From positions 62,001 through 126,000 of the forward strand of contig CP046180.1 of assembly GCA_014075295.1 (NCBI GenBank): DNA of 64,000 nucleotides, given 5' to 3'. The notes under the pieces are model-generated. The model worked only from the letters and a program-made list of their open reading frames with translations, did not search any database and was not told where the DNA came from. The position numbers and the translations under genes were made by a program. The stretch comes from Candidatus Mycalebacterium zealandia. GTDB lineage: Bacteria; Desulfobacterota_D; UBA1144; Nemesobacterales; Mycalebacteriaceae. Shown piece by piece: positions 10,444-38,101 of this stretch; the stretch's first letter is position 1; every line of letters starts with the position of its first letter.

Positions 10444-12162
10444 ATGAAATCCAACTGGCTTATAAAAGAACAGTTTCCTGAACGCAGCGCGGAACTCGCG
10501 CGCGAGGTGGAAACCTCGCCACTTGTGGCTCAACTGCTCATAAACAGAGGAATAGAGACCGGTGAGACCGCCGAGCGTTTTTTGGGCGACAGTTTCACGG
10601 AGTTGCCGAGTCCTTTTCTGATGGCGGGAATGGAAGACGCCGTTGACAGAATAGAAAAAGCGGTTGGCAGCGGCGAGGTGGTTGCCGTTTACGGCGATTA
10701 TGACGCGGACGGCGTAACCTCAACCTCGCTTCTGTGTGATTTTCTGAAAGCCCTTGACGTTGACACCATATACTTCGCGCCGCACAGAATTAAAGACGGA
10801 TACGGAATAAACTCGCGTGCCGTTGAGGAACTGGGGCGGCGTGGGGCAACCCTGATTATCTCAACCGACTGTGGAATAACCGCGCTTGACGAAGTGGAAA
10901 ATGCCAAGGAACTGGGAATAGATTTTATAGTTACCGACCACCATCTGCCCGGCGATGAGATTCCGGACGCGGTCGCGGTCGTAAACCCGAAACTGCCCGG
11001 CTGCGACTATCCGGAAAAAAACATAGCAGGGGTTGGGGTGGCTTTTAATCTCGCTCTCGCGGTGCGCGCGCGACTGCGCGAGAAAGGTTTTTTTGACAGC
11101 AGAACCGAACCTAACATGGCTCATTATCTGGATTTGGTTGCCATAGGCACAGTAACGGACAGGGTTCCGCTCACGGGCGCAAACAGGATTATGGTCAAAG
11201 AGGGAATCAAGAGAATGAAAACCCCTGACAGACCCGGAATTGAGGCGCTGAAAACGGTCAGCAGGATAAACGGAGGATTCAATTCGGGCGACATCGCTTA
11301 CAGAATGGGGCCGCGCATAAATGCGGCGGGCAGAATAGACGGACCCGAAATCGCGGTTGAGCTTCTGCTGTCCGAAAGCGCGGAACACGCACGGACGATA
11401 GCAAAAAAACTGGATGAACGGAACAGAACCCGACAGGAACTTGAGCGCAAAGCGGTTGCCGAAGCGATTGAATTTATAGAGCAGAATCCGGACAGCGCGC
11501 AGTCCGCCTGCCTTGTGGTTTCTTCGCAGGACTGGCATCCGGGAATCACGGGCCCTCTCGCCTCGCGGCTTGTGGAAAAATACTCCAAACCCGCGTTCGC
11601 CATTGCAATAGACTCAGACGGAATCGGCAAAGGCTCCGGCAGAACGGTTCCGGCGGTCAACCTTTATGAAACCTTGCGAGCCTGTGACAAGTCGCTTGAA
11701 CGCTATGGCGGGCATGCGATGGCCGCAGGGATTACCGTGCGAAGCGAAAGCATAGACCTGTTCCGCTCCGAGATTGACAAGCATATCAAAAGCACCGGCG
11801 CGGGCACGAAACCGGGAGAAAAGACCTTCCGCATAGACGCACGCATCGGCATTGAGAGTTTGACCCTCAAAACCGTCAAGGAGTTTGAAATCCTTGAGCC
11901 GTTCGGAAGCGGCAACCCCACGCCGGTTTTCCTGATTGAAGGCGCGAAAATCATTTCACACAACGTCATCAAAAACGCTCACCTTAAACTTTTTCTGGAC
12001 ACGGGCGAAGGCGGCGCCCCTATTGAGGCAATGTGGTGGAACGCCGCGGACGGAGTTGCTGCGCCCGAAGGGAAAGCGGACATAGTGTTTTCGCCCGAAA
12101 TCTCGGTATGGAAAAACAGAGAGTCCCTCACACTCAGGATTATCGACCTTGAAAGGATATAA
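10444..12162 (+). CDS. recJ: Single-stranded-DNA-specific exonuclease RecJ
   Basis: 5'-3' ssDNA exonuclease of recombination and mismatch repair. 572 aa, full length. The DHH phosphoesterase domain has YGDYDADGVTS near residue 85, DCGI near 140 and TDHHLPG near 165, giving the metal-binding aspartates and histidines. The DHHA1 domain shows the GSGR motif (after IGKG), RYGGHAMAAG and, in the C-terminal OB fold, EPFGSGNPTPVF. Followed 17 bases later by trkA. Core gene, composition like its neighbours. Confidence 0.96.
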   Translation: MKSNWLIKEQFPERSAELAREVETSPLVAQLLINRGIETGETAERFLGDSFTELPSPFLMAGMEDAVDRIEKAVGSGEVVAVYGDYDADGVTSTSLLCDFLKALDVDTIYFAPHRIKDGYGINSRAVEELGRRGATLIISTDCGITALDEVENAKELGIDFIVTDHHLPGDEIPDAVAVVNPKLPGCDYPEKNIAGVGVAFNLALAVRARLREKGFFDSRTEPNMAHYLDLVAIGTVTDRVPLTGANRIMVKEGIKRMKTPDRPGIEALKTVSRINGGFNSGDIAYRMGPRINAAGRIDGPEIAVELLLSESAEHARTIAKKLDERNRTRQELERKAVAEAIEFIEQNPDSAQSACLVVSSQDWHPGITGPLASRLVEKYSKPAFAIAIDSDGIGKGSGRTVPAVNLYETLRACDKSLERYGGHAMAAGITVRSESIDLFRSEIDKHIKSTGAGTKPGEKTFRIDARIGIESLTLKTVKEFEILEPFGSGNPTPVFLIEGAKIISHNVIKNAHLKLFLDTGEGGAPIEAMWWNAADGVAAPEGKADIVFSPEISVWKNRESLTLRIIDLERI

Positions 12163-14971: not shown

Positions 14972-15904
14972 GTGGAATTTTTTCAGAATTTTTCTTTTTC
15001 CGGAGATTTGAAAACCGTTTGCGCTCTGGGCAATTTTGACGGCGTTCATCTGGGACACCGCAAAATCATTGCCACGCTCAAAGAAAAAGCCGCGCAACAC
15101 GGCGCAAAATCCTGCGCGATTACTTTCGACCCTCATCCGCAGAAATTCCTGAAAAACAAAACAGTCCACCTGCTTATGCCCTTTGATGAGCGGCTTGCGT
15201 TGCTTGAAAAAAGCGGAATTGAAATGGCGGTGCGGCTTGAGTTTTGCGAGTCCCTGTCTCTTATGCCGCCTGAGCGGTTCATAAAGGAAATTATGGTGGA
15301 AAAAGCCGCGATGACGGCTATTGTTGTGGGCCCGCGCTTCGGTTTCGGCAACAAGAGACGGGGAAATGTTGATTTGCTTAGAGAACTGGGAGACAAGTTC
15401 GGGTTTGAAACAGTTGTTCTTGAACCCGCGATGGTGGGCGGCGAAAGGGTAAGCAGCAGCAGAATCAGGGAGTTGATTCTCACCGGACACACGGACGAGG
15501 CTTCGGAACTTCTCGGATACTGCTACTACATAAAGGGCGTTGTGGAAGAAGGGGAAAAGCGCGGACGGGAAATAGGGTTTCCAACCGTCAACCTCAAAAC
15601 CCGTTGGGAAATACTGCCAAAACCCGGAGTTTACGCGACCGTTACGGAAATTGAGGGACACGGACGCGAGCGTAGCATAACAAACATAGGAAACAGACCC
15701 ACTTTCGGCGGCGGCAAGACGGTTGCCGAGAGCCATTTGCTTGATGCCGAAGGGAATTTTTACGGAAAAAAAGTGACCGTTGAGTTTGTAAAAAGGGTCA
15801 GGAACGAAAAAAAATTCGGCTCGGCGGACGAGTTATCGCGGCAAATAACCAAAGACATTGAGCGGGTCAGAGATGTTCTGGAAAAGAAAACCGGAGATAA
15901 ATAA
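14972..15904 (+). CDS. ribF: Bifunctional riboflavin kinase / FAD synthetase RibF
   Basis: Makes FMN and then FAD. 310 aa, GTG start at 14972. The N-terminal nucleotidyltransferase domain has LGNFDGVHLGHRKII and the SSSRIRELI motif; the C-terminal flavokinase domain has KRGREIGFPTVNL, PGVYAT and NIGNRPTFGG. No FMN riboswitch is visible because the gene lies 2 bases behind trkH and shares its transcript. Confidence 0.95.
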   Translation: MEFFQNFSFSGDLKTVCALGNFDGVHLGHRKIIATLKEKAAQHGAKSCAITFDPHPQKFLKNKTVHLLMPFDERLALLEKSGIEMAVRLEFCESLSLMPPERFIKEIMVEKAAMTAIVVGPRFGFGNKRRGNVDLLRELGDKFGFETVVLEPAMVGGERVSSSRIRELILTGHTDEASELLGYCYYIKGVVEEGEKRGREIGFPTVNLKTRWEILPKPGVYATVTEIEGHGRERSITNIGNRPTFGGGKTVAESHLLDAEGNFYGKKVTVEFVKRVRNEKKFGSADELSRQITKDIERVRDVLEKKTGDK

Positions 15905-15906
15905 TT

Positions 15907-16752
15907 TTGAGCGGAAAAACCACACTTTTCGGAATATTCGGGCATCCGGTTTCGCACAGCCTCTCTCCCGACATGCACAACGCGGCGTTTTCCGCGCTTG
16001 GAATGAACTGCAGATACGATGCGTATGACATTGCCCCGGGCGAAATTAAATCCGCGGTGAAAACCATACGCTCCCTGCCTCTTCGCGGGGTAAACGTAAC
16101 TGTTCCTCACAAACAGGCGATTATGGACGAGATGGATTTTCTTTCCCCCGAAGCCGAACTCGCGGGCGCAGTCAACACGGTGAAAAACGATGACGGACGC
16201 CTGTCGGGATACAACACCGATATAGACGGCGCGCTAAAAGCGCTTAAAGTCGCGACTGGTTTTGAACCTGAAAACGGAACCTCGCTCATCATAGGAGCGG
16301 GAGGAGCCGCGAGAGGGATTATTTCAGGACTTTGCATGAAAAACACAAAACGGATTTTTATCGCTAACAGAACCGCCGGAAAAGCGGAGGCTTTGGGGCG
16401 CGAATTTGCGGAAAAATTCCCGGAAATTGAAATTGAAACCTCGGAATTGCGAAGTGAAAAAACTTCGGAATTGCTCGCCTCCGCGGACATTCTCATAAAC
16501 TGTTCATCGGCGGGAATGGGGGGAAACGAGCCTCTTGATTTGCAGCTTGAAAAATTCATGGGCACGTTTGGGGTTTACGACCTCGTCTATAAGCCGCTTT
16601 TGACCCCGCTTGTGGCGCGTGCGCGCGAACTTGGAATAAAAGCGGAATCAGGGCTTGGGATGTTGCTTTATCAGGGAGCAAAATCTTTTGAAATCTGGAC
16701 GGGCGGAGACGCACCGATTAAAGTGATGAAAAAAGCGCTCGGAGACGAATAG
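15907..16752 (+). CDS. aroE: Shikimate dehydrogenase AroE
   Basis: NADPH-dependent reduction of 3-dehydroshikimate to shikimate. 281 aa, TTG start at 15907 two bases after ribF, with CGGAGA upstream. Substrate site: GHPVSHSLSPDMHNAAF; catalytic lysine in NVTVPHKQAI; aspartate in GYNTDIDG; nucleotide fold GAGGAARGII followed by NRT; DLVYKPLLTPL and the C-terminal GLGMLLYQGAKSF. Together with aroQ it supplies chorismate precursors. Confidence 0.95.
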   Translation: MSGKTTLFGIFGHPVSHSLSPDMHNAAFSALGMNCRYDAYDIAPGEIKSAVKTIRSLPLRGVNVTVPHKQAIMDEMDFLSPEAELAGAVNTVKNDDGRLSGYNTDIDGALKALKVATGFEPENGTSLIIGAGGAARGIISGLCMKNTKRIFIANRTAGKAEALGREFAEKFPEIEIETSELRSEKTSELLASADILINCSSAGMGGNEPLDLQLEKFMGTFGVYDLVYKPLLTPLVARARELGIKAESGLGMLLYQGAKSFEIWTGGDAPIKVMKKALGDE

Positions 16753-16755
16753 AAA

Positions 16756-17505
16756 TTGGCGAAATGCGCATTGATGATTTATGAATTGATTGACTCCATA
16801 CCCGGCGGCGGAGAATACTGGAGCGAATACATAAATTTTTATGAAAAATTCTGGGATCGTCCGGCATCGCCAAGATCAACCTGGTGGGGAAAGGAATACG
16901 ATGAATTCAGAAATCTTCTCGCCTCTAATTTGGGAATTGAAACGGGTGAAATCAAAGACTGTTTTTTCATAAAAGAAAATGAGCGGTATTTTGTGTGCCG
17001 CATAGACGAACCGTCAAGTTTTAACATAATTTCGTGCGAAAATTTTATTCCGTTTGAATGGCTTGCGGCTTTTGACGAGGAAAAGCGCGATTTTTTCTAC
17101 ACTCACGCGGGTTTCGGCGCCGTTCATCATGATTCAATTTTCTATACTGAAAATATAGGAGACGCAATGAAAAGAATTGAAGAGGCGGAAAGTGTCTGCG
17201 GAAAAACCGGAGACAGAATTTCCGAATATCCTGAATTTGAAAAAATTAAAAACCTCGCCGTAAAATTGCGTGAAATGAACAGCTGGCTGCGCGGATTTGA
17301 CGAAAAAGGAAAAATTTTTCTGAACTACGGTGAAATATGCTCTTTTATAACTCAGGATTCAATGAAAAATGAAAACTCCGTCGGTGATTTGAAAAGAATT
17401 ATAAAAGGAATTGAAAAAGGCAATTACGAGAAAGCTGAATCAGATTTAAGATTTCTAAACGCAAAATGGACGGAAATAACCGGAGCGATTGAGAGAAGCG
17501 GGTAG
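16756..17505 (+). CDS. Unknown protein at the edge of the AT-rich island
   Basis: 249 aa, rich in aromatic and acidic residues, with no signal peptide, membrane segment or motif I recognise. TTG start at 16756, 3 bases after aroE; an ATG at 16774 is an alternative. Its composition is clearly poorer in G+C than aroE: line 17221-17280 has 20 G/C of 60. It may be an acquired gene riding on the aroE transcript. Its stop faces the end of the HerA-like gene 34 bases away. It could be an immunity-type or orphan effector protein, but nothing in the sequence proves it. Confidence 0.7.
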   Translation: MAKCALMIYELIDSIPGGGEYWSEYINFYEKFWDRPASPRSTWWGKEYDEFRNLLASNLGIETGEIKDCFFIKENERYFVCRIDEPSSFNIISCENFIPFEWLAAFDEEKRDFFYTHAGFGAVHHDSIFYTENIGDAMKRIEEAESVCGKTGDRISEYPEFEKIKNLAVKLREMNSWLRGFDEKGKIFLNYGEICSFITQDSMKNENSVGDLKRIIKGIEKGNYEKAESDLRFLNAKWTEITGAIERSG

Positions 17506-17539
17506 AAACAACCAAAATCTAAGAGTCAGACTCCTGTCT

Positions 17540-19267
17540 TTATTCCGGAAAATTAGAAATTAGACCTTGCATTTCTAAAAAGAGCGGAGTACCCGTAAAC
17601 GAAAGAGGAGAAACAGGTCCATAAAACATAAAAGGGAATTTGTTGTTGCTTGATGGATCAATAAAAGAACGATAAAACTTTGCTCCAGATTCGTCATTGA
17701 TTATATTCCTAATCTGGCTAAATTCAGAACCACTAGTAAGTCCATATCCAAAAGCGAATATTCTAATCTGCTCTCTTATTTCCCTGTGAAGAGACTCAAT
17801 GGTCTGAGTAATGAACATATAGCCTATGCCGTACTTCCTTGTTGTACGAACAGCATCAATAATGCTTGTTGTTAACTCCTTCATATCTTCATCGTATGTA
17901 TAGGTGCTGATGAATCGATGAGCTTCATCTAAAACTACTAGACAGTTTGATTTACCTCCTTGGCTATATAATTCTGCACCTTTTTCTTTTATAGAATCTT
18001 CAATGATTTTTATAAAAAGAGTTTGAACAGATTCCATTCCGCTGACAGCATTCCTCCCTGAAATGTTAAGGACAATTACATTTTTGGGATTAGATACTAC
18101 TTTATCTACGATGCTGTCTAATTTTTCCTTGTCATCCTCTTTGAACAAACTACACACGTAATCCCATATCTCTTTTGTCTCATTGTCAATCTCCAGAGAT
18201 TCATCTGCGAGATCCCCTATCCTCTTCCTCAATCTTGTTAACTGAGAACCGCCACTAGCGTATACATTCTCTGTATACCTCTCGCTTTCATAAAACCTCT
18301 TAATCATTGAATTAAGTAACCCATCACTATCTTCTCCAATAGAAAAACGCGAATTGTTCATCCTTCCAGACACATATTCTTGAATTGATTCAGCCATTAG
18401 TTCTCTTTTTTCCTGAGTATGAATTCTGAAAGCCTTTCTAATAAAATCGTAGTTCAGCAATAAACTACTAAATAGAGATGCGAGATGAGGCAAAGAAACC
18501 TCATCAGGGACAATATATTTTTCATAATTCATCCCAGCATCTTCAAGACTACCCATAAAACTCACTTGGTCTGGCAGCACATTGTTATCTTCAAAAAACT
18601 GTTCTTGAGGATCAAGAATTAAAATACTCATATGCTCATTATTTCTTGCGTATGCTAAAATCATGTTGGCGGCCGCGGTTGTTTTTCCTGAACCAGTGCG
18701 GCCAAAAACTCCTATATGGTAGGCATCTCCCCCACCTCCTTCTTCAGGTTTCCCAAAATGCTTAAACCAAAAAGGAATTTGAACATCTGTGTCGTATGCA
18801 TTACCTATACAGACTAATTGCCCCTCATACTGCTCCATAAGTTTTTCCATAATTTTATTATTCACTCTCTTAACCGGCACACCAGTTGAAGGTGAATTTG
18901 CTAATTTATGAGCCTCTGATTTTTCTTCTGCAAGAATAAAACTGGATTGAACACTAACCTTGGCTATCCTGTTGTCTGCAACTTCGCTCAGATTAGGAAG
19001 ACTGCCGTGTCTTTTTATAATTCCCTTAAAAGACGGTTCTTGATGCCATTTGTTTTCCGTTGTAATTTCAGTTGTTTGACCTAAGACAAACACATCTTTA
19101 TCCCCCTCTTTCACACAAAAACAAGCTAACTCACCCAGAAGTTTGTCTTTTTCACTAATCTCAAGAACATCAACAACTGCTTCAAAAGTGTCACTTGGAG
19201 AACCTACTGCTCCAAGGGAATTGTCGTCAGAATCTAATAGGTTAATGATAGATTTGTTCTCGGGCAA
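17540..19267 (-). CDS. HerA-like hexameric DNA-translocase ATPase (DUF87)
   Basis: 575 aa. The N-terminal ~150 residues look like the beta-rich HAS-barrel segment, ending in LVCIGNAYDTDVQIPFWF. Then comes the FtsK/HerA-type ATPase core: Walker A GRTGSGKTTAAAN (about 189-201), ILDPQEQF, and Walker B LVVLDEAHRF (about 440), followed by TTRKYGIGYMFITQ. HerA proteins form ring translocases that act with NurA nucleases in DNA end processing and, in bacteria, in several anti-phage systems. TTG start with strong GGAGG at 6-base spacing, 11 bases after the NurA-like stop. AT-rich relative to the core genome. The last gene of the three-gene unit. Confidence 0.88.
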   Translation of the reverse strand: MPENKSIINLLDSDDNSLGAVGSPSDTFEAVVDVLEISEKDKLLGELACFCVKEGDKDVFVLGQTTEITTENKWHQEPSFKGIIKRHGSLPNLSEVADNRIAKVSVQSSFILAEEKSEAHKLANSPSTGVPVKRVNNKIMEKLMEQYEGQLVCIGNAYDTDVQIPFWFKHFGKPEEGGGGDAYHIGVFGRTGSGKTTAAANMILAYARNNEHMSILILDPQEQFFEDNNVLPDQVSFMGSLEDAGMNYEKYIVPDEVSLPHLASLFSSLLLNYDFIRKAFRIHTQEKRELMAESIQEYVSGRMNNSRFSIGEDSDGLLNSMIKRFYESERYTENVYASGGSQLTRLRKRIGDLADESLEIDNETKEIWDYVCSLFKEDDKEKLDSIVDKVVSNPKNVIVLNISGRNAVSGMESVQTLFIKIIEDSIKEKGAELYSQGGKSNCLVVLDEAHRFISTYTYDEDMKELTTSIIDAVRTTRKYGIGYMFITQTIESLHREIREQIRIFAFGYGLTSGSEFSQIRNIINDESGAKFYRSFIDPSSNNKFPFMFYGPVSPLSFTGTPLFLEMQGLISNFPE

Positions 19268-19278
19268 AACTCTCCTCC

Positions 19279-20466
19279 CTAACTTGTCCTATAAGGAAGA
19301 ACAAGATCAAAGTTTTTGTCGCTATGCAATACGCTATCATTAAAAATAGCCTGGTTAACTGCTTCCATTCCAAAATATATATTCTTAGCAATAATATCCG
19401 CCAAAAATTGCGGATAAGGTTCCCGGATTTCTGGAAATACTATTTGTCTTTTTAAACTTCTAAGAAACCGCTCAAGATTGTTGCCATTTTCCGCAAGATT
19501 TTTCTTTATTTCAACTCGATGAGCCATAGTATGCTCCAAAGGTTCGTAATAACAAAAAAACAAATCAGATTCACTATTGTCTGTAACTTTGAATGGAGCA
19601 ATTGCATCTTCAAAACGACCTTGAAGTTCTGAATTGTCCACGCCATCAATCGGCAAATTACATTTTATATGAATCTGTTTCCACATCTCTCTGTCTTTTG
19701 CTGATTGCCCTACAGGAACCGGTTTTGTATATTCATTTTCCTTGAGAAGCGTAGACAGAAAAACTTTGTCATCGGCAACAATTTCAAACTCTTGCAATTG
19801 AGAGTCTATAATCTCCCTTGAAGAAGAGTATTTTGTAAGACTTATTATTGATTCGTTAGAAAAAGCACTTGCCACAATATCCGGTATTTCGGGAATGACT
19901 TTGTCATAGTTTTCAGAAAGAAATCTTGATAGTGCATCTACGTATGGTTTGTCAGCATCTGCTTCATCTTTAGCACTGAGCAAACTATTGAGTTTAAGAA
20001 TGGCGGTTACATGAGAACCGTCCATTATTCTTATTTCTCTATCTGCTTCAGACAAAATGCTCAACTCCATGAGAAACATCACACCTTGCGCCAATCTCGG
20101 ATTAGCTACATGGTGAGGCAATGCGTCTTGCCATTGTTGATATTGTCGCGAACCATCAGGCCAAGTGGTTGAAGGTTCTTTTGAAAGTCCATCTACGCCA
20201 ACTGCAATTGCCAAAACAATGTCTGCGCTTGTTTTGTGCTCAACAACATTGGCTCCATCAGCAGCCATAATTGACTCTGTAAAATCGCCTTCCGAACAAG
20301 ATTGAATAAAATTATTATTTTTCAGTACAGTCCTTGCTTTTTCTACTTGAGATTCATTGATTTCAATCGTTTTGGCCAATTGCTTTGCAGTTCGAGGTGC
20401 TTTTTCAAGCATTTGTAGCAAGAGATCCTCTGGCAAATATGCGTAGCTCTTATCGTCTGTAGCCAA
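19279..20466 (-). CDS. NurA-like nuclease with N-terminal winged-helix-like segment
   Basis: 395 aa, not previously named in this context as far as I know. Residues about 10-55 look like a winged helix (PRTAKQLAKTIEINESQVEK). Then a divergent NurA pattern: AADGAN (Asp70), Glu134 in FLMELSIL, MDGSHV (Asp149), a Y...YRVE-like strand region (YYEPLEHTMAHRVEI) and REPYPQFLADIIAK, matching the YP..L..A motif near the NurA C-terminus. NurA is a Mn2+-dependent nuclease that functions with HerA, and a HerA-like gene follows 11 bases later. TTG start with GUGGGG at 8 bases. The family call is by eye from motif order and the partner gene. Confidence 0.65.
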   Translation of the reverse strand: MATDDKSYAYLPEDLLLQMLEKAPRTAKQLAKTIEINESQVEKARTVLKNNNFIQSCSEGDFTESIMAADGANVVEHKTSADIVLAIAVGVDGLSKEPSTTWPDGSRQYQQWQDALPHHVANPRLAQGVMFLMELSILSEADREIRIMDGSHVTAILKLNSLLSAKDEADADKPYVDALSRFLSENYDKVIPEIPDIVASAFSNESIISLTKYSSSREIIDSQLQEFEIVADDKVFLSTLLKENEYTKPVPVGQSAKDREMWKQIHIKCNLPIDGVDNSELQGRFEDAIAPFKVTDNSESDLFFCYYEPLEHTMAHRVEIKKNLAENGNNLERFLRSLKRQIVFPEIREPYPQFLADIIAKNIYFGMEAVNQAIFNDSVLHSDKNFDLVLPYRTS

Positions 20467-20471
20467 AGAAT

Positions 20472-21620
20472 TTACCCCACAAGATTCTGGCAGTTTTCCA
20501 AGTCTTCTGACAACTCATCTAGATAGTTCTGCTTAGAAAAAAAATTCTTTTCATATTCCCAAACTCTTTTGCAAGCCCATCTTTCCTTCCAATATCCTGT
20601 CAAATCATCAACGCTTCTGCCATACCACGTAGGTCTCTTCTCTTTCTCTATTACATCTTTTAAATTTGAGGCAAAGGGAAAAAGATAAATAGCCCTTTTC
20701 ATTCCGTGCTCACAGCCATTTTTGAATCCCAATAAGTTCATCGCTTTGTTGATATTCTTCATTTTTACAGAAGGACCATTTCCAAACGCCCTTCCAGCCT
20801 TATAACCACACTCGCGGAGATAACTAATAAAACCTTCGTAAAGAGTATTGGGTATGTGAAAAGAACCGCTTCCACTCGTATAACCAATAAAATCGCAGAT
20901 TTTTTCATCGTATAATTTGAGACGGTTATAAACACTGCTTTTGCCATAAGCACCTGTTGTAGTAATGAAAAGTAAGTTTGCAGGCAACTGTCTTTTCAAA
21001 AGCAAGGTTTTGCTTTTGCTGTATTTGTTTTTGAAAGACTTACGAACCAAATCGGATGTCATCAGTGAAGCAACCAATTTTCCACCTAAAAACTTGTTGT
21101 AGGGGGGAAGGGATCCTAATCTTTGTGCCGATAACGACTGATTTACCCAATAATCCCTTCGTTCAGGTTCTATAGAAAGGTGTTTATCTCTAACACTCCA
21201 GGAGAGAATGGGGCTTTGCAATCCTATTAGACCAATTGGAGATTCGTGATAGTCATCCCAGACAACAAACCTCATTTGTCTTCCATAAGATTTTTCATAT
21301 GGAAGACTCCACCAAGTCAAATTCCACCAACGGAATAAATTCCCCTCTCTTGTTCCCGACTGTACTTCTATCAATCTGGGTTTAATCTTTGAAACTTCTA
21401 AACTTGAACTATCAAGAATGTGCTTGCTGGCTTCGGGCAAGAATGATTCAATAAAATCAATGCTTTCTCTGATTCTTTCCGCACGAGAAAGTTGGTGTAA
21501 ATGTCGTTTTTCTTCTCTATCATCCGTGTCAAGATAAAACTGCCCCTTCTTAATTCTATACCCCTGAGCAACAAGGACCCTTCGAACTTCTTTTCTTAAT
21601 GCAGTTTCAACCCTGTTCAT
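20472..21620 (-). CDS. DUF4338 protein similar to Druantia DruA
   Basis: 382 aa, soluble. It shows the run of motifs I associate with DUF4338/DruA: IKPRLIEVQSGT, LFRWWNLTWWSLPYEKSYGR, RFVVWDDYHESPIGLIGL, LPPYNKFLGGKLVASLM, TTGAYGKSSVYNRL and TSGSGSFHIP. DruA is one component of type I Druantia anti-phage systems; its biochemical role is not settled. The large helicase DruE and the other Druantia genes are absent here; a NurA-like gene follows 5 bases later. ATG at 21620. Upstream 21621-21668 is AT-rich without a clear promoter. Confidence 0.82.
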   Translation of the reverse strand: MNRVETALRKEVRRVLVAQGYRIKKGQFYLDTDDREEKRHLHQLSRAERIRESIDFIESFLPEASKHILDSSSLEVSKIKPRLIEVQSGTREGNLFRWWNLTWWSLPYEKSYGRQMRFVVWDDYHESPIGLIGLQSPILSWSVRDKHLSIEPERRDYWVNQSLSAQRLGSLPPYNKFLGGKLVASLMTSDLVRKSFKNKYSKSKTLLLKRQLPANLLFITTTGAYGKSSVYNRLKLYDEKICDFIGYTSGSGSFHIPNTLYEGFISYLRECGYKAGRAFGNGPSVKMKNINKAMNLLGFKNGCEHGMKRAIYLFPFASNLKDVIEKEKRPTWYGRSVDDLTGYWKERWACKRVWEYEKNFFSKQNYLDELSEDLENCQNLVG

Positions 21621-21668
21621 AACTTAGAACATACAATACACATTTTTCCTAAAAAAATTCCACCAACT

Positions 21669-22214
21669 TCACTGCTTAACCACCCTTTCCAAAACCTTCT
21701 CAAACTCTTTCGCCCTTTCCTGCCCTATGTGCGTTTCCCCTATCATTTTGTGAACAATTTTGCCGTCTCTGTCCACGATATAAAAAGTGGGCCAGTAGCG
21801 ATTGTTCATTTTCCGCCAATAGTAAAAATTGTTGTCCATCATAACGGGATGAGAAACCTTGAATTCCCGCATTTTCTCTTCAAGGTTTCTTCTGCTCTTT
21901 TCATGCTCAAACTCCGGCGTGTGCACGCCGATTGCCTGAAAGCCGTTTCCTCCGAAACGTTTTTCAAGCCCGCGCAACCACGGGAAGGAGCGATATGAAT
22001 TCCAGCAGTCAAAAGTCCAGAAATACACGAGCGTTACCCCGCCCTTTAAGTCCTCACGTTTGAGCGGCGCGGAATTAATCCAGTCCTGCCGGCTTGACGA
22101 GGTGAATTCCGGCAGTTGCCTCTGGTAAAACGCCTGAGCTCCCGCATGCGTTATCAGAACCGGCGCAAAAATAAAAAAAGCGCTAAAAAGAAATGCAATT
22201 TTAATCGCTCTCAT
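21669..22214 (-). CDS. Secreted thioredoxin-like protein with CxxS active site
   Basis: 181 aa. Signal peptide about residues 1-27 (hydrophobic core FLFSAFFIFAPVLI, then HAGAQA), so periplasmic. Thioredoxin-like/TlpA-type fold: TLVYFWTFDCWNSYRSFPWL carries the active site as C-W-N-S instead of CxxC; then the cis-proline segment YWPTFYIVDRDGKIV. Loss of the second cysteine argues against ordinary dithiol reductase chemistry and for a monothiol isomerase or peroxidase-like role (inference). Last gene of the oad operon, 6 bases after the DCC protein. Confidence 0.82.
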   Translation of the reverse strand: MRAIKIAFLFSAFFIFAPVLITHAGAQAFYQRQLPEFTSSSRQDWINSAPLKREDLKGGVTLVYFWTFDCWNSYRSFPWLRGLEKRFGGNGFQAIGVHTPEFEHEKSRRNLEEKMREFKVSHPVMMDNNFYYWRKMNNRYWPTFYIVDRDGKIVHKMIGETHIGQERAKEFEKVLERVVKQ

Positions 22215-22220
22215 AACCGT

Positions 22221-22628
22221 TCACGGAAGAAATCTGTCGGAATTTTCCGCATCCGGCAACTTGCACGAGTCAAATTTACCGAACCATTTGTAACGTCCGC
22301 GTGCTATATAACCGTAAATTAAATCCCTGATAAAAGCGGGAATATATGAAAAAACCCGTGCGAAACGCCAGCCGCCGCCCATTCGGGTGAGAATTTTAAT
22401 CACCGCTCCGGAAAAATGGTGAACGCCCTCCTCGTCCATATAAACAATGCTCCATTCGTGAAAATCCGGCGGCGCGGAAAAGGCTTTCGCCGCGGTACGC
22501 CCCCGCAACGTGGAAAAAAAGAAAGTTTTGCGCGTGTCTCTTTTGAGAATAAAACGGATAAAACGGTCACACAATCCGCAAACACCGTCAAAGAAAATTA
22601 CAGGCTTGCCGTAGGGAAGGGATTTCAA
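22221..22628 (-). CDS. DCC-family thiol-disulfide oxidoreductase (DUF393, YuxK-like)
   Basis: 135 aa. N-terminal [16 protein letters not shown] is the DxxCxxC signature of the DCC family (thioredoxin-like fold), followed by a hydrophobic patch around [18 protein letters not shown]. Exact substrates of the family are unknown. It overlaps the oadB stop by 4 bases, which implies translational coupling with the decarboxylase membrane subunit. Confidence 0.9.
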
Positions 22629-23908
22629 GAAAACACCGCGAGCAAAATTCCCGCCGCGACCGCTGAACCCAGAACCCCGGCCACGTTGGGACCCATCGCG
22701 TGCATAAGCAACACATTTTGAGGATCTTCCTTCGCGCCGACATCCTGCGACACGCGCGCCGCCATTGGAACGGCGGACACGCCCGCGGAACCGATAAGCG
22801 GGTTTATCTTGTTCGTGGAAAACAGGTTAAGAAGTTTTGCCTTGAGAACGCCCGAAGCCGTTCCTATGCAGAAAGCCACCACTCCGAGTATTAAAATTCC
22901 GATTGTTTCAACCGTGAGAAACTCCTCGGCCGAAAGTTTTGAGCCAACTCCGAGCCCGAGAAATATCGTGGTTATGTTTATAAGCGAATTCTGCGCCGTG
23001 TCCGAAAGTCGGTCAACAACTCCGCACTCCTTCATCAGATTGCCGAACATGAAAAACCCTATAAGCGGAGCGGCGGACGGGAGAAAAAGCGCGCACAAAA
23101 CAACGGAAATAAGCGGGAACATAATCTTCTCGGTTTTAGCGACCGGTCTGAGCTGTTTCATCCTTATCATCCTTTCCTCTTTTGTCGTCAGAGCTCTCAT
23201 TATGGGCGGCTGAATGAGCGGAACAAGCGCCATATATGAATACGCGGCAACCGAAATCGCTCCCAGAAGACGCGGAGACAACTGAGAGGAAACATAGATT
23301 GCCGTGGGGCCGTCCGCGCCGCCGATGATGCCGATGGACGCCGCGTCCGCAAAGGAAAAATCTATGCCGTCAACATAACGCGTGAGCGCAAGCGCTCCTA
23401 TAAGGGTGGCAAATATGCCGAACTGCGCGGCAACGCCGAGCAGTATGGTTCTGGGATTGGCGAGAAGCGGCCCGAAATCTGTCAGCGCGCCGACTCCCAT
23501 GAAAATAATCAGCGGGAAAATGCCCGTTTTTATGCCCGCATCGTAAACATAGCTCAAAATCCCGCCCGGCTCATTGATGCCCGAAAGAGGGATGTTGGAA
23601 AGCACGCAACCGAAACCAATTGTAACAAGCAGAAGCGGCTCAAACCGTTTGGCAATTCCAAGATAGAGAAGAAGAAAGCCAACCGAAACCATCATGAACC
23701 GTCCCGGTCCGGGTATCCACGACTCCTCGTAGGATAAAAAGCCGCTCACTCCGGTCTCTCGCGCAAGGCTACGGAAAATATCCAGAAGACTCGGAAGTTC
23801 CGAGCCCTCGCCGCCCGCAGCGAACGCCGGAAAAACGAAAAAGGCGAAAATCGCAAGAAAGGCGAAAATCGCAGTGAGTAAAGAAGTTTTTTTCATCTCG
23901 TCAAACAC
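22625..23908 (-). CDS. oadB: Na+-translocating decarboxylase beta subunit (OadB/GcdB family)
   Basis: Membrane subunit that decarboxylates carboxybiotin and pumps Na+ outward. 427 aa, many helices. Diagnostic segments: [35 protein letters not shown] (the Na+/H+ site region with the conserved Asp), and the C-terminal [19 protein letters not shown] then [21 protein letters not shown]. The N-terminus is hydrophobic and signal-like. GTG start at 23908; an ATG at 23896 is an alternative. Sits directly behind oadA. Confidence 0.95.
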
Positions 23909-23919
23909 GGTTGCAATGG

Positions 23920-25734
23920 TCAGTTTGGAGCAATTGTCAGCAGAACCTGACCCGATTCAACAACATCGGTCGTAGAGACCTCTATTGATGCCACAACCCC
24001 CGCGCACGGAGAGGCGACCGGGGTTTCCATCTTCATCGCTTCAAGCACAACAAGCGGTTGATTTTCCTCAACCTTGTCTCCGACAGCAACTGAGATTTTA
24101 CAAACATTTCCGGGAACGGCGGCGACGAGCGGCGTTACTTCTCCCGACGGCTTTGCGGACGGAGCCGCCTGCTGAGCGCCCCCTTCGCTGATGCTCACGG
24201 CGTAGTCAGAGCCATCAACCGTAACCGCGTAGGCGTCGCCGGAGGGCTTAACGCTCACGGCGTAATTCTTTCCGTCAATGGTTGCGGTAAAAGCGTCCGG
24301 CGTGGAGCCGCCTTCGGGCTTTGCCGCCTCTTTGGCTTCGTTTTTTCTCACATTGACCGAGAAGTCTCCTTTGAGAAAATCAAGCCCCTTGTTCCCGCCC
24401 GGAGTCTCAAGAGCGCCGACTATGAATATATTCTCCTCGGTAGTTTCAAGCCCGTTTTTTTCAAGAATGGCTTTCGCCGAGGGAATTCCCGGCTCAATAA
24501 TCTCAAGCGGGTCACCGTTAAAACGGGGTTTGCCCATCTGCTCTTCGGCGATTTTTACAACTTCGGGGTCGGGAGGAACCGGCGTGCGCCCGAAATAGCC
24601 GAGCACCATATTGCCGTATCCGTCCGCGATTTTTTTCCATTTGCCCTGAGTTACGTTTGAAAATGCCTGCTGAAAATAGAACTGCGAAACCGGTGTTACG
24701 GAGGTTCCGAAACCGCCTTTGGCGACACATTCGGACATCTCCTCTATCACCTTCGGGTAAAGTTCAAGCGTGTTGGTGTCGCGCATCATCATTGTGTTTG
24801 CCGTGAGCGCGCCGCCGGGCATCGGAGAGAGCAGAACTTCGGACGAAATTCCCAGCGCTTCGGGCGGAAAATAGTAATCCGCCATGCAGTCCTTGAAAAC
24901 TGCGTTCGCTTCAAGAATTTTCTTCACATCCACATCAAGCGTAAAATCCGTCCCCTTGAGCGCACCGCACATGGAAATGATGTCCGGCTGGGCGGTTCCG
25001 CCTGAAACCGGAGCCCGCGCGACGCATATTCCGTCGCAACCGGCTTCTATCGCAGCGGTGTATTGAGCAACGCCCTGCGCGGCGGTTTCATGCGTGTGCA
25101 CCCACAGTACCGTGTCCTTGCCAACAATCTCTCTGGCGCCTTTAACCGTGTCGTAAACCTTTTTGGGGTTTGAAGTTCCCGAAGCGTCTTTGAAGCAGAT
25201 TGAGTCAAAGGGAAGCCCGGAATCAAGAATTTCGCGCACTTTGTTGATGTAAAATTCCGAATCATGCGCGCCGTCGCAGCCGGGTGGAAGTTCCATCATC
25301 GTAACAACAACCTGATGGTGAATACCCGCGTTTTTTATGCACTGCGCGGAATACTCAAGGTTGCGCACATCGTTGAGGGCATCAAAGTTTCTTATGTGGG
25401 TTATGCCGTGCTTTTTGAACATTCTGGCATGAAGGTCAATCATGTCTTTGGGTTGCGCGGACAGCGCCACCACGTTGATTCCCCTCGCAAGCGTCTGGAG
25501 ATTGGCATCGGGACCCGCGGCGCTTCTGAACCTGTCCATCATGTCAAAAGCGGACTCCCCGCAATACAGGAAAAGGCTCTGAAATCTGGCTCCGCCGCCA
25601 GCCTCAAAATGGGTTATTCCTGCGTGCGACGCCGCTTCAACCGCCGGAAGGAAATCATCGGTGAGTACGCGCGCGCCGAAAAATGACTGAAAACCGTCTC
25701 TGAAAGAAGTGTCTTGAAAAAGTATTTTCTTCAT
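23920..25734 (-). CDS. oadA: Biotin-dependent decarboxylase/carboxyltransferase alpha subunit (OadA-like)
   Basis: 604 aa from the ATG at 25734 (AAGGG at 7 bases; the longer frame to 25800 would run into oadG). N-terminal HMGL-like carboxyltransferase barrel: [19 protein letters not shown] with the lysine that is carboxylated in relatives, and [11 protein letters not shown] with the metal-binding HxH. The C-terminus is a biotinyl domain with EAMKMET (Lys is the attachment site), preceded by an Ala/Pro linker. The barrel is a divergent version of OadA, so oxaloacetate, methylmalonyl-CoA or another acid could be the substrate; the pump partners are OadB and OadG. Confidence 0.9.
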
Positions 25735-36419: not shown

Positions 36420-38101
36420 TCACGTCGTGCCGTGCGACTGGGGGTCGTCCGCCGATGGAGAATTAGTTGCTTCCTGTTCGACTCTTTCAAGCAAGAGTTC
36501 TATGAGTTTGACAAATCCTTTTCTTTTTGCCTCATAAACTTCATTTTTTCCGCAAAAATCTTTTATTTCCTTGCTATTCAAATTACCCAACAATTTCCTA
36601 AATTTTGATCTTCTAAAATTGGCAAGAACTTGTTTTTTCTTTTCCTCGCTATAATCACCCCAATTTTCCCGATCCTCTTCGCTAAAATCATCCTCATCAT
36701 AAGTGAGAGGTACATCTCTGTAGCCATCAAAGGTACCTAAGAAACCAAAAATCACATTTATTGTTTCTTCTTTTCTTTTTTCTATATCCTCTAGAAGTTT
36801 TCGTTCACTCTCTCCTTGATTCCCCACCTGTGAAACAAAACTATTAGAAAGGCGAAACATCGGATTTAACTTGATTATCCCTTTGATGTCGTTTTCCGGA
36901 CCACAAGCAAACCTTATCCAAGCAGTGAATAGACCCGAATTAACTCCGGGAAACAGCATATTCACAATGTCGGATAGGGATTGGTTGAACAGTGGTTCGT
37001 CTGACTTCTGAAAAAGATGGCTGCCATAATTTACTATGAAGTGGTCCAAAACAGTTTCCGCTTCCCATTCTTCTGAATTATTACTTGTAATTTTCCAACC
37101 TTTTGGAAAATAGCTTTTCCAAACATCAGGATTTACGCCTGCATTATTCCTATTTTCATAGAATGTGGAAAGCAATACCCTAAGCAAATCGTCAATATAA
37201 TGTTTATATTCTGTGGCCAGTTGTAGATTTCCCTCTTTTCTTTCCCTTTGAATTTTTTTCTCTACATGCTTTATATACTTTTCAAATTCTTCAAAGACAA
37301 AAGAGGAATAAACAGGACTCAACAGCAATCTTTGTACAACTTTCGGAAAAAAGGAATGCTGAAAATGAGTTGTGGGTACATAAACTTTTTCGCTTTGAAT
37401 TTTTGTCTCTGACTTCCAAAAAATTTCCATCCATTCAAAAACCTTTGGAAGCACAGAATTTACAACAAAAAGATCCTCTCTAGCAGCAAAATTATCTTGA
37501 TACCCCTGAGAAAGGCGTGCGGCCAAAGCAAATTCCTCCTCTTGTAGAAATCTATCAATATGCTCTACGAAAACCTTATTTAACTCTCTTTCGTCATATT
37601 CAGATGACTCCGGCCAAAAAGACTCCCATGCTTTTAACATTTTCTCCTGATTTTTTTCATTACGGACTTCCGACAGACAAAGTTTACTCAAAAATTTCAA
37701 CCCAATCTCAGGTTTGTATCCTTCGAGAACATCTTGGAAAAGTTTCCAAAAATAAACAATCAAAATAAATACCGCAAAAATTGCCAGTGTTTTTCCCAAT
37801 ACAAAAAACTGACCGTTATCAGGAGAGTTGGAAAAAAGGGGAAACCCACAAGACCAAGAATAGAAAACCAAAACAGATTTCTAAATTTGAGGAGTTCTTC
37901 TTTGAATGCTTGCGTTTTGAATTCACTTTTGGAAATTTGGGCGAACATACCAAGTGAAACTGGAATCAAAATTGCTAAAAATCCTATAATGACATTTTGG
38001 AACAATGAAGGATTAAGACTTGCTAAAAAAGGTTGCAAAATCTCCTCCAAGACGAAAGAAAATGTTAGGAATTCAAGAGAGAACTCTAGCAGGTTTGTCA
38101 T
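36420..38101 (-). CDS. Unknown multi-pass membrane protein, reading frame broken or recoded at a slippery heptamer
   Basis: Two frames overlap. Frame A runs from the ATG at 38101 to a stop at 37760 (113 aa); frame B covers 36420-37871 (483 aa if started at its own codon). The protein makes sense only if A is read to residue ~99 and then B: helices near 10-30, 36-56 and 74-98 come from A and LAIFAVFILIVYFW from B, followed by a ~430-residue soluble, acidic domain. The joined product is 560 aa. The switch falls on T-TTT-TTG, a classical -1 slip site. It is AT-rich (20 G/C in 37201-37260) between secA and smc. No family recognised. Genuine recoding, pseudogene or sequencing error are all possible. 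Confidence 0.65.
37802..37808 (-). promoter_or_regulatory. Possible -1 ribosomal frameshift site T-TTT-TTG
   Basis: In frame A the codons AGT-TTT-TTG form the X-XXY-YYZ heptamer (minus strand 37808-37802). Slipping back one base continues as TTT-GTA-TTG in frame B, which is open for 460 further codons. Downstream I see only a weak 4-bp hairpin (GCAA/TTGC), so a stimulator is not evident. Confidence 0.4.

Follow-up and report, generated by a model that had tools for sequence, protein, structure and literature searches.

A mobile DruA-NurA-HerA gene trio that looks like an addition to the HerA-driven immune complexes of bacteria and archaea

Introduction

Several described systems share components with the locus studied here, in which DruA (DUF4338), a NurA-family nuclease and a HerA/FtsK-type ring ATPase are encoded side by side in the genome of Candidatus Mycalebacterium zealandia (a single contig of 1.16 Mb), of which a stretch of 64,000 nucleotides (contig CP046180.1, positions 62,001 to 126,000), referred to as the window, was analysed. 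In TdpABC, the phosphorothioation enzyme TdpC marks self DNA, and TdpAB, a HerA-type ring ATPase with a NurA-like nuclease, degrades unmarked DNA. In SIR2-HerA and HerA-DUF4297, anti-phage defence works through a HerA ring joined to an effector (PMC11291478). The HerA-NurA pair of Thermococcus kodakarensis degrades both strands of double-stranded DNA with ATP, the HerA ATPase feeding NurA, and an antiviral role was suggested by the authors (PMC12977600). DruA belongs to type I of Druantia, a tested anti-phage system; a review counts Druantia among the systems discriminating by DNA modification and relates that a phage factor promoting methylation evades Druantia type I (PMC12904381).

A preliminary description of the window, made from its letters alone, had proposed the three genes to be an operon and a candidate new defence system, for which it knew of no described counterpart.

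Comparison with described systems

The trio is not Druantia. The DruE helicase, common to all Druantia types, is lacking from the trio: the DruE-type MZB/DUF1998 domain gave no match in the genome of the window, and in a search of 23 genomes the MZB domain was absent from 16 and, in the other seven, never found on the trio contig. DruA is the component shared with Druantia type I; its homologues there show about 30% identity along most of the protein and lie within the spread of the trio DruAs, beside the cyanobacterial ones. However, DruB, DruC and DruD, which adjoin DruA in type I, are all missing from the accessory segment of the window (Table 1), and the effector of the trio is NurA-HerA.

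The two other components of the trio have distant relatives in TdpABC, which likewise has one further gene; in the trio, DruA takes the slot of TdpC, and the segment has neither a fourth gene nor a phosphorothioation enzyme. With the archaeal and bacterial NurA-HerA pairs of end resection, the trio has the nuclease fold, the catalytic acids, the HerA Walker motifs and the gene adjacency in common, but it is accessory, horizontally transferred, tied to DruA and distant, with profile E values of 0.0019 to PfuNurA (3tai) and 9e-7 to SsoHerA (4d2i). The coupling of a HerA ring to an effector resembles that in SIR2-HerA and HerA-DUF4297, whereas the trio has NurA instead, plus a third conserved gene, and no SIR2 or DUF4297 domain was found in the three trio proteins in a Pfam search. 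MADS provides the best PADLOC match of HerA (mad8, E 8.9e-18), but it comprises eight genes compared with the three of the trio, which is without a methyltransferase, kinase or other mad gene.

No PADLOC 2.0 model matched the NurA of the window or of four further loci (L016, L017, L020, L037). A joining of NurA with Druantia or DruA was not found in the open literature searched, the scope of which did not extend to subscription papers, some preprints and the newest DefenseFinder models. For PADLOC 2.0 and this literature, it holds that no described system consists of exactly these three components. The trio looks like an addition, uncatalogued in the sources searched, to the HerA-driven immune complexes of bacteria and archaea, a growing group in which it would form a NurA branch.

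Conservation of the combination

An alignment of HerA was scanned against 84,980 species genomes, yielding 25 loci from 25 species, with DruA, NurA and HerA being adjacent in 20 of them. Two apparent exceptions (L032, L039) were discarded as contig breaks, a whole-genome search revealing DruA beside NurA in the respective genomes (G073, G080). The trio is present in 22 of the 25 genomes, with one DruA per genome that adjoins NurA every time; in one case (G074), this DruA appears as two pieces on two contigs. The three exceptions are a genome with HerA alone (G064), a member of the Bathyarchaeota (G068) and a member of the Bacillota (G072). Three viral contigs (L015, L016, L050) carry the trio in the same order; single-sequence scans of viral contigs were empty, and alignment queries were needed for matches. 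In the GenBank phage collection, no match to NurA or DruA was obtained.

Trio hosts are found in the Pseudomonadota, Cyanobacteriota, Chloroflexota, Actinomycetota, Verrucomicrobiota, Planctomycetota, Nitrospirota and the phylum of the window, and include a micrarchaeon, which makes at least nine phyla from both bacteria and archaea. The gene order is DruA-NurA-HerA in most loci and NurA-HerA-DruA in cyanobacteria, and in Streptomyces and the micrarchaeon DruA lies behind HerA on the opposite strand. Because DruA is kept with NurA-HerA in all three arrangements, its link to the pair survives rearrangement. The pairwise identities of DruA, NurA and HerA were correlated (r 0.80-0.97). Co-occurrence in other genomes had been set by the preliminary description as the point on which its proposal would stand or fall; given the 22 genomes and the three viral contigs, the combination is beyond chance.

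Since this first scan had been seeded with HerA, 400 Chloroflexota genomes were searched with the NurA profile and the surroundings of the matches examined. DruA was found beside NurA at 14 of 19 strong NurA-HerA loci compared with none of 14 weaker solitary NurA genes (Fisher P 1.4e-5). The NurA family is rare among cyanobacteria (4 of 386 genomes) and Planctomycetota (1 of 392 genomes), and the trio system is widespread yet uncommon.

At two more of the 19 strong Chloroflexota loci (L099:7291-8235 and L100:7199-8215, both minus strand), the DruA slot holds a divergent protein with a different N-terminal region, for which the comparison with DruA (hhalign E 2.5e-4) is only suggestive of a DUF4338-like nature. 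In related Chloroflexota (L104:4793-6094 and L105:4722-6020, plus strand; L106:7126-8424, minus strand), a protein of about 433 amino acids, which by eye we take to be glycosyltransferase-like, is encoded directly before NurA-HerA. Upon comparison it was unrelated to DruA; it could be a substitute third component or reflect mere local synteny. The proteins in the DruA slot of a Rhizobium (L005) and a Bathyarchaeota (L027) locus were compared in the same way and were also unrelated to DruA.

Further NurA-HerA loci differ in layout. Plasmids of Corynebacterium, Rhodococcus and Dietzia (L006, L007, L008) have a conserved locus of same-family NurA and HerA, without DruA, in which two opposite-strand genes separate NurA from HerA. 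On the Rhizobium plasmid (L005:5563-12880), a Rep3 initiator, a 387-aa unknown protein, NurA, HerA and a 678-aa HATPase-type protein are encoded in a co-directional run. At a DruA-less locus of the Bacillota (L031:3447-4454, minus strand), the divergent upstream gene encodes an ordinary GNAT domain (PF00583, E 4.7e-15).

Gene layout and insertion site

The open reading frame (ORF) coordinates (Table 1) bear out the preliminary description of three minus-strand genes with intergenic gaps of 5 and 11 bases, and the operon claim was confirmed; a promoter scan of positions 16700-22300 gave no signal above chance. The GC content of the trio is 37.9% versus 50.8% in the remainder of the window, and the G/C counts from which the trio had been called AT-rich, 23 at 18001-18060 and 35 at 10801-10860, are both exact. 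Also across relatives, nearly every locus measured showed a lower GC content in the trio than around it.

Table 1. Features of the DruA-NurA-HerA locus and its edges (positions in the window).
Feature	Position	Strand	Remarks
HerA/FtsK-type ring ATPase	17540-19267	-	575 aa, TTG start, intact ORF
NurA-family nuclease	19279-20466	-	395 aa, TTG start, intact ORF
DruA (DUF4338)	20472-21620	-	382 aa, ATG start, intact ORF
Accessory segment	17506-21692		Holds exactly DruA, NurA and HerA; lies between two blocks kept in the sister species
Core gene P0004, left edge of the insertion, outside the system	16756-17505	+	G011 has an orthologue (65%) and a paralogue; a further paralogue in own genome
Core thioredoxin-like gene, right edge, outside the system	21669-22214	-	Pfam AhpC-TSA; G011 orthologue 59% identical, at the same place

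DNA of the sister species (G011, same genus) aligned with the window at positions 15335-17501 (70% identical) and 21693-24637 (73% identical), and between these two blocks the place of the trio was taken by about 1.4 kb of unrelated DNA. From the kept flanks and the unrelated DNA in the sister species, it follows that the three genes are the complete accessory and a single mobile unit. The site in G011 (L048:2274-3412, minus strand) holds a 280-aa and a 104-aa ORF, neither with a Pfam or PADLOC match above threshold, which may be different cargo carried at this insertion site.

Within the phylum of the window, the trio occurs in only 1 of 58 genomes. Its nearest relatives are in gammaproteobacterial metagenome-assembled genomes, with HerA being 68-71% identical, which points to a movement of the trio across phyla; the horizontal origin suggested earlier is supported by our analysis.

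Protein components

The identities initially given to the three proteins were corroborated by profile matches and, for NurA, by a match of the predicted structure. HerA scored 40.9 bits with PF01935 (cut-off 23.2), matched the HerA models of PADLOC besides mad8, and gave profile matches to 9c1m, TdpA (8wet, E 1.5e-10), HerA 8xau and SsoHerA. Walker A, Walker B, arginine finger and sensor Gln are all present, with K195 of Walker A, D447-E448 of Walker B, R477 and Q488 being invariant wherever aligned (about 45 rows).

The NurA of the window had no Pfam match of its own; homologues from three loci (L003, L005, L016) exceed the PF09376 cut-off. Its AlphaFold2 model (predicted local distance difference test, pLDDT, 86.8; predicted template modelling score, pTM, 0.85) was matched by Foldseek to Sulfolobus NurA (2ygk, E 5.5e-12), the Thermococcus HerA-NurA complex (9x1m, E 2.1e-11) and TdpAB (8wet_G, E 3.5e-4), and the profile alignment with PfuNurA placed D70 on the Pyrococcus VDGS motif. 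From sequence and model, an RNase H-like fold is predicted, with a putative acidic site of D70, E134 and D149 (and D357). D70, E134, D149 and K212 were invariant wherever aligned (about 45 rows of trio-type relatives), which includes the Asp70 and Asp149 that, like the Walker A Lys of HerA, had been proposed for mutation. In Thermococcus NurA, the predicted active-site Asp49 is required for cleavage (PMC12977600).

DruA matched PF14236 with an E value of 2.6e-61 and the DruA model of PADLOC with 2.5e-88. For its AlphaFold2 model (pLDDT 84.6, pTM 0.83), most of the 50 best PDB fold matches were GNAT-fold enzymes, with GNAT acyltransferases making up nearly all of the top ones, which is suggestive rather than strong evidence for a GNAT-like fold. 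In the alignment, LGGKLVA, which follows one strand, may be similar to the acyl-CoA loop of GNAT enzymes, and SSxYNRL...GYT, which follows the next strand, to their Tyr motif. Rakesh and colleagues independently assigned DUF4338 as a GNAT domain, and their DndF paper puts it among domains that may target self molecules (PMC10853773). R144, D145, Y174, K181, Y200, S228, Y231, R233 and R309 were invariant wherever aligned (37 rows). Together, the predicted fold and the invariant polar residues would fit a modifying enzyme at least as well as a recruiter. As the catalytic or polar residues of NurA, HerA and DruA never vary where aligned, all three proteins are likely to be working enzymes. DruA-like predicted folds were also seen among uncharacterised giant-virus proteins in BFVD (Faunusvirus, E 2.8e-17; Yasminevirus, E 4.9e-15; Dasosvirus, E 1.9e-8).

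Proposed function and alternatives

DNA methylases of the N6/N4 kind, for the most part belonging to type III restriction systems, lie within 5 kb at four trio loci, compared with 0.41 loci expected from the genome-wide density (P 0.0009, for a feature picked after seeing the data). On one phage-like viral contig, a type IIG restriction-methyltransferase gene (L015:7746-11012, plus strand) shares 4 bases with the end of HerA; this contig also encodes a siphovirus Gp37-like tail protein. The trio is probably an anti-invader defence system, given that DruA is otherwise part of anti-phage machinery, that the cassette is mobile, belongs to the accessory genome and occurs sporadically, mostly with a GC content below that of its surroundings, and that restriction genes are found nearby.

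Within such a system, HerA-NurA would very probably be the DNA-degrading effector. Extrapolating from the known biochemistry of HerA-NurA, six HerA subunits would assemble into a ring and pump double-stranded DNA into a dimer of NurA; with both strands cut there, linear foreign DNA would be degraded. A motor-nuclease of this kind must spare the chromosome, and DruA is the sole other component and looks enzymatic; for this reason, the discrimination of self from foreign DNA would most simply fall to DruA. By analogy with restriction-modification and with TdpABC, which provides a precedent for a marking enzyme combined with a HerA/NurA-like pair, DruA may mark the cell's own DNA, or alter a DNA-bound partner, and thereby stop HerA-NurA there, while unmarked phage or plasmid DNA would be destroyed.

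Taken as a whole, the reading that we favour, a mobile anti-invader system in which DruA marks self DNA and HerA-NurA destroys unmarked DNA, seems to us nearly as probable as its contrary. The chances that DruA is a modifying enzyme at all appear evenly balanced; that it would specifically modify self DNA is a tentative proposal and somewhat doubtful. In its most specific form, with the DruA GNAT writing a novel mark on host DNA and NurA-HerA, as a processive nuclease, responding to its absence, the proposal is unlikely; if true, it would amount to a new chemistry of self/non-self marking and would explain the role of DruA in Druantia type I. The modification and evasion data on Druantia agree with a modification-linked role of DruA but do not show it. 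The trio connects DUF4338/DruA, a widespread family still awaiting an explanation, with a motor and a nuclease whose biochemistry is understood, and, the unit being minimal and movable, what DruA does is directly testable.

Several findings weigh against the favoured reading. When near relatives were removed, the correlation of DruA with the other two proteins fell to r 0.37-0.46 (n = 8). NurA-HerA occurs without DruA in the Bathyarchaeota (L027), in the Bacillota (L031) and on plasmids (L003-L008), and therefore the pair can work without DruA; such relatives on plasmids lie near replication genes. The match of DruA to solved GNAT structures is weak (best E 0.014), if consistent in kind, and the neighbours of most trio loci are ordinary genes.

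The main alternative to DNA marking, in line with the recruiting or licensing role that the preliminary description had given to DruA, is that DruA senses a feature of the invader or a late state of infection and then brings in or activates HerA-NurA. DNA modification would play no part in this, and self DNA would be spared because the trigger is absent. DruH of Druantia III, a likely sensor with DruE as effector (PMC13192584), offers a part that DruA could play, and the shuffled position of DruA as well as its divergent lineages would fit a fast-evolving sensor; the invariant polar residues R144, D145, Y174, K181, Y231, R233 and R309, however, resemble the site of an enzyme more than the variable surface of a sensor, and we consider this alternative rather unlikely.

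Alternatively, DruA might acylate the invader DNA or a phage or host protein, giving a signal for attack by HerA-NurA or poisoning the infected cell. This would draw on the many kinds of substrate acylated by GNAT enzymes and on the company in which the DndF paper places the GNAT of DUF4338, domains with self molecules as possible targets (PMC10853773), but the trio has no toxin-antitoxin features and its effector is clearly a pair of DNA-end nuclease and motor, which makes such a role improbable.

A function outside defence, as a module for DNA-end processing, recombination or plasmid maintenance that rides on mobile elements, would be in keeping with DruA-less NurA-HerA pairs near plasmid replication genes (Rep3 in Rhizobium L005, RepA in Corynebacterium L006), with the serine recombinase adjoining the viral trio L016 and with the end-resection activity of bacterial NurA-HerA (PMC9960219). 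It is hardly probable in view of the sporadic, accessory occurrence of the trio, replaced as it is in the sister species, the enrichment near restriction genes, the otherwise anti-phage association of DruA and the ordinary genes beside most trio loci.

That DruA is merely a chance neighbour of a housekeeping NurA-HerA, for which only the three DruA-less genomes among the 25 could be cited, is refuted to near certainty by the co-occurrence survey, with one DruA per genome, always adjacent, across nine phyla, and by the scarcity of DruA elsewhere, with only 4 of the 58 genomes in the phylum of the window and no control genome out of 14 containing it.

Other observations in the window

The core gene P0004 at the edge of the insertion site has a GC content of 39% despite its core status. 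A weak profile match of this gene to KwaB (DUF4868, E 0.0018) was dropped because the gene is core, as its orthologue and paralogues show. A second AT-rich patch of the window is formed by a 483-aa ORF at 36420-37871 (minus strand, 37% GC) that is without a Pfam match and is flanked by an apparent secA on one side and an SMC-family gene on the other.

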